NCBI GenBank assembly: GCA_025059045.1
Contig: JANXEA010000008.1
Coordinates: 1 to 64,000, forward strand
DNA: 64,000 nt
Direction: 5' to 3'
Origin: Candidatus Bathyarchaeota archaeon
Lineage (GTDB): Archaea; Thermoproteota; Bathyarchaeia; Bathyarchaeales; DTEX01
The notes under the pieces are model-generated. The model made no database searches, was not told the origin of the DNA, and worked only from the letters and a program-made list of their open reading frames with translations. Both the position numbers and the translations under genes were made by a program. Position 1 is the first letter of the stretch. Each line of letters starts with the position of its first letter. Shown here one piece after another: positions 12,690 through 58,909 of this stretch.

Positions 12690-13091
12690 TCAGGCCTTCA
12701 TAGCCTCGGATATAATGTTCAGCGCCTCTTTTATCTCGTTCATCTCGGCTTTTGTTGCTTCTAGGCCCGACTGCAATGTCTCTCTATTCTTTATGTAAGT
12801 CTTCTCGTCAACTTCCCCTCCAGCATAGCTAACCTCTAGACTCGCAAGCAGCAGGTCAAGTGTCTCAAGCTGATTAGCAAGCTCGTCTATCCGCTCCCTC
12901 ATCTTTTCGACAAGAGATCTCTGGTGCGCCTCAAGATCAAGCAATGTCTCCCTGAGTGTCCTCTCAAGATGCTCATAGGTAAGCTGGGACATCTTCTTCT
13001 TTTCGAGGAGATCGTCTAGGGCCTGCTTCTTTCTCCGAGCAATCTCCAGCTCCTGCCTCACCCTCTCAAACGACTCCTTCCACGAACTCAA
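12690..13091 (-). CDS. CdvA-like coiled-coil protein
   Basis: 133 residues from a TTG start with GGGGTGA seven bases upstream. Almost the whole chain is helical with heptad character. Recognisable blocks are SSWKESFERVRQELEIA at the start, LEAHQRSLVEKMRERI in the middle and LDLLLASLEVSYAGGEVDE, followed by LQSGLEATKAEMNEIKE. This is the pattern of the CdvA-like coiled-coil family of TACK archaea, proteins tied to ESCRT-III (CdvB) membrane remodelling and division. A second copy is at 58137-58673 and aligns along the whole length. It lies about 90 bases downstream of the SMC-like ATPase gene on the same strand, so the two may be co-transcribed. The PRC-barrel domain of Sulfolobus CdvA is absent. 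Confidence 0.65.
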   Translation of the reverse strand: MSSWKESFERVRQELEIARRKKQALDDLLEKKKMSQLTYEHLERTLRETLLDLEAHQRSLVEKMRERIDELANQLETLDLLLASLEVSYAGGEVDEKTYIKNRETLQSGLEATKAEMNEIKEALNIISEAMKA

Positions 13092-13183
13092 ACAATCACC
13101 CCACCAAACTTTAGGAACAAGATTTCAAATAGACTTTAACCTGCATCCCATATTTTACATTAATCCATTGCCGAAGCCTAAGA

Positions 13184-14668
13184 TCATCCTTCATGGATGA
13201 CTTCGATCCCTCCGCCGTCAGAAGTTAATGAGGTGACTATCACGTAGGGAACACGTTGCCTCATATAACCCGTAATCTGCCTGAACCTTTCCGGGTCATA
13301 GCTAAGGGTGAGCTCATCAAGGATGAAGAAGGGGAAGTCCGGCAGAAAAGTCTCCTTAGCAGCCAACATAAGCAGCAGGCTGATGGTAAGCTTCTCAGAT
13401 GCGCTTAATGTATCAACAGGCTGTCGAACCCCGTTCTCACGCATTATATGTAATGCGAAATCCTGATCTAAGAAGACGCTTTTAAAGCCCCTAAGCCCAA
13501 GCCTCTCAAAAGCCCTGTTCACATTCCTGTTAAACCTTAACCTTGCAGCGGTCATGCGGCGCATATACTTATCCTGAAAGTATCCAATCGCCATATTAAG
13601 CCAATCAATCTTCCCAATAATCTCCCTTCTAACCTCAACAACAAGGCGGCCTGGATACTTCGGATCGTCTGGGGGCAGCCGCTCAGCCTCCTGAATCTCC
13701 TCCTCCTTAAGGATCAGCTCCTTGTTTAAACGTTCCATCTCCCTCTCCAACGACTCGAGCTCCATCTCTTCTTCGCGCTTCTTCTCTTCAAACTTCATCT
13801 CCAAGGCCTTTACCTCGGACCTTAACCCATGGACGACTTGGCTCTGCCTCTCGACCTCATCCCTTATCCTCATCTGCCTATCCCTGCAAATATTAATGTC
13901 CTGCTTAATCCGAGCTGCAACCTTCAATGACTCGTCCGCCAACCCTAGAAGGTTAATTAGCTGGTCCTCCCTTTCACGCTCCCTATCAAGATCCTTTCTA
14001 AGATCAGAAAGCCTCATCTCCTCCATTGCCAGCGAACTCTTCTTCTCCTCTAGGCTCCTCAGCAGAGACTGAGAATCCGAGCCGAAGCCAGCCCGTAGCA
14101 TCCTAATCCTTTCAGAAACCCTCTCTTTCTCGGCATGAATCTCCGCGATATCTGCGATAAGTAGGGGCAGAGACTCAAACTTCCTAAAACTAGGCCCAGC
14201 AAGCTCCCTGCTCAGCTCGTTCACGATCCCCTGTGCGGAAGAGATTATAGTGCTATAGTACTTGCCATACGAGAGCTCTTCGAGATATTCGCGAAAAGCT
14301 GAGCTTCCTCCAGTAATCTTATGGACTACGCCGGACTCGGCCATGGCAACGCATGCATCGAAGGCCCTATTATCGGAGAAGGGGAGCATGCTTCCAGATG
14401 CAACCACAGAGCCTGAGGGAGTTCTCCTGAACGTTCTCTCGTAGACTCGACCTCGAAAACGTACTCTAACAATCCCCTCAACCTCATTAAGCGAGAGCAC
14501 ATGCTCAGGCGGAATCTTCTCAGAAAATATTGACGCGAAACCCCTTACAAGGCTGGTCTTACCTGAAGCATTTGGAGCGCGGATTATGTTAAGACCGGGC
14601 TCAAAATCAAGTTCAATACGCCTTAAGCATCCGATATTCTTAAGCTCTAACCGGATACTCCCTCGCAT
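13184..14668 (-). CDS. SMC/Rad50-like ABC ATPase with short coiled coil
   Basis: About 494 residues from ATG 14668; the frame stays open to ATG 14689. The N-terminus IRLELKNIGCLRRIELDF leads into the Walker A segment RAPNASGKTSLVRGF. The C-terminal half has the ABC signature DTLSASEKLTISLLLML and the Walker B/D-loop FFILDELTLSYDPERF. The central 180 residues are a coiled coil (for example EMELESLEREMERLNKE), shorter than in true SMC or Rad50, and there is no CxxC zinc hook. This suits the archaea-specific SMC-related group, whose substrate is probably DNA. The start overlaps the end of the 68-residue gene, suggesting coupled translation and a partner protein. Confidence 0.75.
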   Translation of the reverse strand: MRGSIRLELKNIGCLRRIELDFEPGLNIIRAPNASGKTSLVRGFASIFSEKIPPEHVLSLNEVEGIVRVRFRGRVYERTFRRTPSGSVVASGSMLPFSDNRAFDACVAMAESGVVHKITGGSSAFREYLEELSYGKYYSTIISSAQGIVNELSRELAGPSFRKFESLPLLIADIAEIHAEKERVSERIRMLRAGFGSDSQSLLRSLEEKKSSLAMEEMRLSDLRKDLDREREREDQLINLLGLADESLKVAARIKQDINICRDRQMRIRDEVERQSQVVHGLRSEVKALEMKFEEKKREEEMELESLEREMERLNKELILKEEEIQEAERLPPDDPKYPGRLVVEVRREIIGKIDWLNMAIGYFQDKYMRRMTAARLRFNRNVNRAFERLGLRGFKSVFLDQDFALHIMRENGVRQPVDTLSASEKLTISLLLMLAAKETFLPDFPFFILDELTLSYDPERFRQITGYMRQRVPYVIVTSLTSDGGGIEVIHEG

Positions 14669-14846
14669 ATCTCTCCGCATACCTCTCAAGCATCTCCCTT
14701 AGCTCTTTGCCGTCCCCCCTTCTGAGAATGTCTAAGGCCAACCTTTCAATCTCAGCGATATATGGAACTGGCAAAACAGAAGCCTCCGAGACCCGCTCCG
14801 TCTTCTGCCTTGGCATATTAAGAACCTTTATGCAGTCCACTGGCAA
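14640..14846 (-). CDS. Small acidic/basic helical protein coupled to the SMC-like ATPase
   Basis: 68 residues ending YAERYAREYPVRA. Its stop lies 29 bases inside the start of the SMC-like gene, in another frame, which is the strongest sign that it is real and translated. The N-terminal third is polar; residues about 28-60 form an amphipathic helix (EIERLALDILRRGDGKEL). No family is recognised. Its position ahead of an SMC-type ATPase suggests a regulatory or kleisin-like binding partner, but that is inference from context only. Confidence 0.6.
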   Translation of the reverse strand: MPVDCIKVLNMPRQKTERVSEASVLPVPYIAEIERLALDILRRGDGKELREMLERYAERYAREYPVRA

Positions 14847-14994
14847 TCTAAGGAATATACGAACCGCATAAAACGTTTTTTAACATAAGTGAATAGCCAA
14901 TTATAATATCCATTCGCAAGAACCACCGCAAATCATTACTACTGATGCCAAACTCAAAATTCTTGGCCGCTGAAAGATGAACAGCATAATACTC

Positions 14995-58136: not shown

Positions 58137-58673
58137 TTACGATTGCACCGTCTCTTCTATATTGCGTATGCTAGGTGCTTCCTCTTCAGCAATGTCTTCA
58201 CCGATGGTTTCAGAAGGACCATGTGAAACCTCCGGTATATTTTTAGAAAATTCTACATTGCTCTTGTCGACTGGTGTTGAAGATTTTGGCATAGATTCCT
58301 CCGAAAAACCTTTTATTCTTCGCATCTCTTGCTTTGCCGCCTCTAAACCTAAGAGAACAGCTTTACTCTGTTTTTCATAGATCTCATCATCGATGTCACC
58401 GGCTGCATGATGTATCTCTAGGCTGGCTAGAAAAAGCTCTAACGTGCTTATCTGCCTCTCCAATTCTTGAGCTCTTAGGCTCATCTTGTCAATAACAGTC
58501 TTCAAATGACCTTCTAACTCATTTATAGCCTCATTAACCTCAGCACTCAACTGTTCATATGTTGCCTTCGATATCTTGCCATTATTGAAAAGGTTTTCCA
58601 GAACTTGCTTCTTCTTTTTTGTCATTTCCATCTCTTTAGTAACAAGCTCAAATGAATATCTCCATATACTCAA
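58137..58673 (-). CDS. CdvA-like coiled-coil protein with acidic C-terminal tail
   Basis: 178 residues from TTG 58673, with GAGGTG seven bases upstream. This start aligns with the TTG start of the paralogue at 12690-13091; the frame stays open further up. LSIWRYSFELVTKEMEM, LEGHLKTVIDKMSLRA, TLELFLASLEIHHAAGDIDD and LGLEAAKQEMRRIKG are paralogous blocks. Beyond them is a tail of about 55 residues, disordered and acidic (PEVSHGPSETIGEDIAEEEA), which the other copy lacks. Sulfolobus CdvA binds CdvB through its C-terminal end, so this tail could recruit an ESCRT-III protein; inferred. Confidence 0.65.
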   Translation of the reverse strand: MSIWRYSFELVTKEMEMTKKKKQVLENLFNNGKISKATYEQLSAEVNEAINELEGHLKTVIDKMSLRAQELERQISTLELFLASLEIHHAAGDIDDEIYEKQSKAVLLGLEAAKQEMRRIKGFSEESMPKSSTPVDKSNVEFSKNIPEVSHGPSETIGEDIAEEEAPSIRNIEETVQS

Positions 58674-58909
58674 ACCTAAACACCTCGTGAAGAGGTTGAA
58701 GACGAAGAAGATAACTTTTGCCATCACGCATGTATATGTTATCATATTAAGGCAATTTCATATTAAGGCAATTTTCATTTTCCAGCATCCAAGTTAGGAG
58801 AGAACAATACAAAAATTCCTTTAAGCCCAGAATTTTAGGCTCGTCTTAGCATCAATTATATAAGTATCTTCCCTCAATTACTAAAAGAGTTTAAGAGGTG
58901 TTCCCCCTA

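Follow-up and report, generated by a model that had tools for sequence, protein, structure and literature searches.

The window, a 64,000-nucleotide stretch of a Bathyarchaeia genome (Candidatus Bathyarchaeota archaeon, contig JANXEA010000008.1), contains three adjacent genes that encode a small helical protein, an SMC-like ATPase and a CdvA-like coiled-coil protein (Table 1). The initial annotation had described this trio as one run on one strand. We found all three open reading frames at the same positions, all on the (-) strand. The small gene and the ATPase gene overlap by 41 bases, and the CdvA-like reading frame, which starts with TTG, lies 92 bases after the ATPase gene. The small gene had been assigned 68 residues and an overlap with the ATPase start. 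The overlap stands; the length probably does not. The likely start of the small protein is the ATG at 14816 (MPRQKTERV...) rather than the TTG at 14846, because the part conserved in relatives begins later, and this start gives 58 residues. For the ATPase, the most likely start is the ATG at 14680 (MRRDMRG...), a position at which close relatives also have an ATG.

The small gene is probably the first gene of an operon. Alignment of upstream DNA from seven genomes revealed an AT-rich, TATA-like box in the intergenic stretch before it. The box is TTTAAATT-like in the relatives, where it is located ~50 bases 5' of the small gene, and reads TTTTATG/TATATT in the window. Because the box precedes the small gene in the relatives, the operon probably opens with that gene, and the box is its probable promoter.

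Table 1. Features of the ASRP locus and the window paralog of its CdvA-like gene
Feature	Position	Strand	Details
Putative operon promoter stretch, intergenic, before small gene	14820..14895	(-)	upstream DNA alignment, seven genomes
Small helical protein gene	14640..14816	(-)	58 aa from ATG; 68 aa if TTG at 14846
ASRP-type SMC-like ATPase	13184..14680	(-)	498 aa from ATG; 501 aa from TTG 14689
CdvA-like stand-alone three-helix coiled-coil protein	12690..13091	(-)	133 aa, PF18822 + AlphaFold2 + Foldseek
CdvA-like paralog, order-wide, outside operon	58137..58745	(-)	202 aa, acidic tail, PF18822 46.4 bits

The sequence of the ATPase identifies it as a member of the SMC superfamily of the ASRP type, a relative of coalescin/ClsN and Sph. 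ASRPs (ClsN of Sulfolobales, Sph of haloarchaea) were the best family match by far. The NCBIfam ASRP model NF045487 scored 286.8 bits (E 3.5e-85), just under the curated cut-off of 300, as a shortened variant, and the next-best NCBIfam family had an E value of 1.1e-12. For comparison, a close ortholog scored 293.4 bits and an Asgard ASRP 250.3 bits. PF13476 also matched, above its cut-off. All nucleotide-binding motifs are present; alignments place an N-terminal Walker A (APNASGKTS) before the coiled coil, and a signature (LSASEKLTISL) and Walker B (FPFFILDELTLSYD) after it, at the C-terminus. This split Walker A/Walker B layout, the signature motif and an antiparallel coiled coil are shared with ClsN and Sph. 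An AlphaFold2 model of the ATPase (pLDDT 87.7), searched with Foldseek, matched structures or heads of Rad50, SMC, JetC and LmuB. The NF045487 match, the motifs and the predicted fold all agree with the initial annotation, which had called the protein an SMC-like ATPase.

The window ATPase differs from ClsN and Sph in its coiled coil, which is ~90-100 residues shorter and has no zinc hook. In the model, the coiled coil spans residues 171-333, with a short arm made up of helices 201-247 and 252-333. We found no CxxC at the coiled-coil apex of the window ATPase or of any Bathyarchaeia relative examined; the zinc-hook CxxC is present in ClsN and in Asgard relatives. By far most ASRPs, though not every one, are reported to have a zinc hook (PMC9389158). 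The window protein is ~500 residues long, compared to ~580-600 for ClsN and 610-660 for Asgard ASRPs. In a tree of head domains, it fell into a group with ClsN, Sph and Asgard ASRPs; the node leaving out a Thermoproteaceae-type Rad50-like outgroup and SMC had a UFBoot of 74, and the sister of its clade was an Asgard group (UFBoot 100). A scan of viral contigs for ASRPs gave no match.

Substitution patterns indicate that the small reading frame is a genuine protein gene under purifying selection. The protein is conserved in seven close genomes, with the invariant pattern PY..E..E.L.Y..E. Pairwise pN/pS was 0.08-0.59 in the part outside the ATPase overlap; pS was 0.74 and pN 0.06 for the genes of loci L012 and L013. 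A small ORF, within the 44-82 aa range that also covers Asgard archaea, overlapped or abutted the ASRP start at every Bathyarchaeia ASRP locus (8/8). As controls, we looked for an upstream small ORF at a like position before other genes and found one in 1/40 cases in the window and 6/54 cases in the fetched loci.

ClsN and Sph loci are different: they have neither an overlapping upstream small gene nor a CdvA-like third gene. No such small ORF was present at the eight Sulfolobales ClsN loci that we inspected or beside five haloarchaeal or methanogen plasmid ASRPs. The small protein had no Pfam match at E 1. A search of solved structures with its profile gave chance-level matches only, so we treat its likeness to helices of kleisin or Mre11 as an analogy only. 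The ASRP paper of 2022 reported finding no consensus among the flanking genes of ASRPs (PMC9389158). We found no report of the small gene in the open-licence literature, and on that basis regard it as a new finding, a previously unreported ASRP partner gene.

We found that the order small gene, ASRP, CdvA-like gene was kept in 6/6 ASRP genomes of the same family. An ASRP of the window type occurred in 8/257 genomes of the class, and all named relatives are Candidatus Bathyarchaeota. (A phylum-wide search with NF045487 mostly brings up Rad50-like proteins, and the ASRP counts do not draw on it.) The trio was found in at least three different genomic settings, at an ASRP identity of 55-58%. The gene after it encodes a DegT aminotransferase at the window, L011 and L014 loci, is nucleotidyltransferase-like in L010, and reads as ribosomal protein S5 in L012 and L013. 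Because the order is kept in all six genomes with differing flanks, and because the small ORF is under purifying selection, the arrangement is more than chance.

The initial annotation had asked whether the gene order is kept beyond close relatives, and part of it was found there. Only one Bathyarchaeia family has the full trio, and the pair of small ORF and ASRP extends to other families and to Asgard archaea. The small gene and the ASRP are both present in a second Bathyarchaeia family (G022, L053). In a third (G036/L055), the ASRP is longer and its start overlaps a small ORF just before it. Neither family has the CdvA-like gene beside its ASRP; therefore, the CdvA-like protein is not a general ASRP part.

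Several other features of these loci and their relatives were seen. In one Bathyarchaeia genome, the ASRP gene at L053:3422-4930 (also L015) is interrupted by one in-frame TAG where a Glu is conserved, and its frame is otherwise intact; the gene may be a pseudogene, the TAG may be a sequence error, or it may be translated as an amino acid. Two tandem paralogs of ~195 aa lie divergently upstream of the ASRP operon at L010:3386-4505, L012:3231-4398 and L013:86-1253. They are absent from the window, and the one that was scanned had no Pfam match. A small archaeal genome encodes a minimal ASRP-like ATPase of 377 aa (L054:4010-5143; P-loop NASVKTS) that adjoins a tyrosine-recombinase-like gene, with no overlapping small ORF seen.

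Small ORFs also accompany ASRPs in Asgard archaea. An ASRP-like match was found in 14/228 genomes of the Asgard phylum. At 15/15 assessable loci (12 with a PNAxGK P-loop and three of a further group), a small ORF of 44-82 aa overlapped or abutted the ASRP start, and pN of the Asgard small ORFs was well below pS. We built a profile from 12 Asgard small proteins and used it to rank 6459 distinct ORFs. The small ORFs of the close Bathyarchaeia, all seven of them, were in the top 17 non-members, and 0/150 column-shuffled profiles matched their summed score. Direct comparison of the Bathyarchaeia and Asgard profiles indicated weak similarity (P 0.002 and 0.013). These results suggest that the small proteins of the two groups are homologous.

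The Asgard small ORF is usually preceded by a gene for a protein of 90-150 aa ("X") with no Pfam match. A conserved protein X of 90-131 aa (e.g., MLMVYLRTTSLRRKFARYL...) is encoded before the small ORF and ASRP in L108-L116, L118, L121 and L123, and is a candidate third component of Asgard ASRP loci. A 109-aa ORF upstream in L033 was alike by eye, but the X profile missed it and it was dropped. In another Asgard group (L142, L143 and L144; also L119, L120 and L122), the ASRP-like ATPases have a GRTASGKS-type P-loop. These loci have an overlapping ORF of 45-48 aa and a larger upstream neighbor (about 150 aa in L143), in islands with AAA ATPase, PAPS-reductase-domain (PF01507), MutY/Nth-like and TGT/DpdA-like genes. 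These are possibly DNA-modification or defense islands.

The third gene of the window trio, which the initial annotation had called CdvA-like, encodes a protein that resembles the CdvA rod in sequence and predicted fold. It matched PF18822 (CdvA coiled-coil domain) with 58.3 bits (cut-off 30). Its AlphaFold2 model (pLDDT 93.9) consists of three helices only, and the top Foldseek matches were all S. islandicus CdvA (TM(query) 0.87-0.93 for the first nine; rmsd about 1.1-1.5 over the top matches). The model has the three-helix rod of the CdvA structures (PDB 9s9g/9s9h/9s9i; TM(query) 0.92 to 9s9g), and the protein aligned without gaps to CdvA residues 69-193 of 238, which form the three-helix coiled coil. 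CdvA has been described as having a PRC domain and an E3B peptide (PMC12818579). Both are absent here: the alignment starts at CdvA residue 69, and the match stops at residue 193, where the protein ends with its third helix. Mutation of six longitudinal contact residues of CdvA (A90/L94/I100/I149/M153/I156) stops polymerization (PMC12818579). The CdvA-like protein has A/L/M and A/V/A at these positions and shares their hydrophobic character, and head-to-tail assembly of the rod is possible.

Unlike CdvA, the CdvA-like protein is not encoded with CdvB and CdvC. A complete CdvB-CdvA-CdvB-CdvC cluster (the first gene CdvB-like, the last Vps4/CdvC) is located elsewhere in the genome, on contig C18, and a second CdvA-CdvB pair on contig C7; we found no evidence placing the CdvA-like protein in the cdv cluster. 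CdvA-domain proteins of 61 relatives fell into three classes: an order-wide paralog, a form of ~250 aa, and the short form. Of the 61 genomes, the six ASRP carriers alone had the short form, always as the next gene. Almost all genomes of the order have the paralog, and no ESCRT-III genes adjoin its window copy (58137-58745). In a tree, the CdvA-like gene was away from canonical CdvA and close to the order-wide paralog; the window copy joined the other five at a node with a support of only 0.51. A recent in-family duplication was considered as its origin and ruled out, as the gene forms its own branch. The CdvA coiled-coil domain also occurs in unrelated proteins of the genome, e.g., an FtsX-like permease. 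An FtsX-like permease with a C-terminal CdvA-type coiled-coil segment, below the Pfam cut-off, was seen at L127:61-1497 and suggests that these archaea use the CdvA-type hairpin as a general module. Judged by sequence and structural model, the label "CdvA-like" is right for the fold and carries no ESCRT-III function.

Based on these results we suggest, with about even confidence, that the locus encodes an accessory SMC-like complex around the ASRP ATPase, with a small subunit and a CdvA-derived rod. The initial annotation had offered either a link between chromosome handling and membrane remodeling or a new small complex; the second is the better supported, and the link to ESCRT-III membranes is unsupported. 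The small protein would be a helix-loop-helix subunit, translationally coupled to the ATPase and made in step with it. By analogy with kleisin N-domains or the Rad50-binding domain of Mre11, it could bind the ATPase at its head or its coiled-coil root and regulate head engagement on DNA. We propose that the CdvA-like rod would oligomerize head to tail, because the six longitudinal contact positions of CdvA stay hydrophobic. It might then be a multimerizing or anchoring scaffold for the hookless ATPase, replacing the zinc hook. As for the cellular role, we infer a special-purpose DNA-tethering or positioning device beside the regular SMC rather than a general condensin, because the same genome encodes a full-length SMC.

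A wider proposal, which we make tentatively and consider rather unlikely, is that ASRPs outside Sulfolobales and Euryarchaeota are multi-subunit cores with a near-universal subunit of 45-80 residues. In one Bathyarchaeia lineage, this core would be docked on a dedicated CdvA-type filament, with an SMC-like ATPase joined physically to a division-filament protein.

The main rival to the accessory-complex reading is a DNA-defense or DNA-modification module, in which the ASRP would sense or handle invading DNA like LmuB, DndD or JetC, with the small protein as an accessory. ASRPs are present patchily in both the class and the Asgard phylum, and the sister Asgard group (UFBoot 100) is beside AAA ATPase, PAPS-reductase-like and TGT/DpdA-like genes. 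PADLOC models matched the window ATPase with 59 bits (mad3) and 42 bits (LmuB). However, SMC-type heads in general give scores of this kind, neither the small nor the CdvA-like protein matches a defense model, and the window locus, like the loci of its Bathyarchaeia relatives, lacks a nuclease or any other effector. We consider this module unlikely. Lamassu LmuB-LmuC and Mre11-Rad50 likewise combine an SMC/Rad50-type ATPase with an adjacent partner gene, and the ASRP model matches both by fold. In contrast to these systems, the window locus has no nuclease (LmuA or Mre11), and the partner here is 45-80 aa. Lamassu also has an LmuA effector and a zinc-hook LmuB, whereas the window locus has no effector gene and no hook, and its LmuB match is the 42 bits given above.

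Alternatively, the ASRP could be cytoskeletal rather than chromosomal, in a cell-shape module like RdfA-Sph3 of haloarchaea. RdfA-Sph3 is likewise an ASRP beside the gene for a small non-enzymatic partner, in conserved synteny. Haloferax needs both the ASRP Sph3 and the adjacent RdfA to form rods, and the RdfA gene adjoins 84% of haloarchaeal SMC-like genes (PMC10869688); it adjoins 4/5 of the plasmid ASRPs that we examined. CdvA rods form filaments (PMC12818579), and cell-surface sugar genes adjoin the window, L010/L048, L011 and L014 loci. We nonetheless find this reading distinctly improbable. L012 and L013 lack the sugar-gene neighborhood and have the ribosomal protein S5-like gene next, and the window locus has neither RdfA nor a recognizable relative of it. 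RdfA, a protein of ~200 aa, has a CxxC-type tail and forms a Pfam family of its own (PF21811), and the window small protein has no match to it. Among the proteins scanned, the RdfA model fired only on haloarchaeal and methanogen neighbors.

The link that the initial annotation had raised, in which the CdvA-like protein would connect chromosome handling with ESCRT-III division or membrane remodeling, is very unlikely. The predicted fold is that of the CdvA filament rod, which could in principle co-polymerize with the genome's own CdvA. Against this, the protein has neither PRC domain nor E3B peptide, its gene is outside a cdv cluster that is complete elsewhere, it branches apart from canonical CdvA and near the order-wide paralog, and its domain also occurs in unrelated proteins. 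The view that the three genes are unrelated neighbors, with an order kept only by recent common descent, fits the confinement of the full trio to one family but is extremely improbable, as the trio persists in at least three flanking contexts between genomes whose ASRPs are 55-58% identical, the CdvA-like form strictly co-occurs with the ASRP, and the pair of small ORF and ASRP reaches Asgard archaea.

Our best reading of the locus is an ASRP system whose small partner is widely kept but had been overlooked, and which in one Bathyarchaeia family includes a CdvA-derived rod. ASRPs such as ClsN and Sph were already known; the small partner gene is new. To our knowledge, since 2022 only RdfA of haloarchaea has been tied to a member of the ASRP family. 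The small gene at the ASRP start is a concrete, testable partner that bears on the ancestral function and the partners of ASRPs, and this candidate partner is also found in Asgard archaea, the lineage closest to eukaryotes. If the wider proposal is true, an ASRP subunit of 45-80 residues has escaped annotation until now. The stand-alone CdvA rod shows the filament domain of a division protein reused apart from ESCRT-III.
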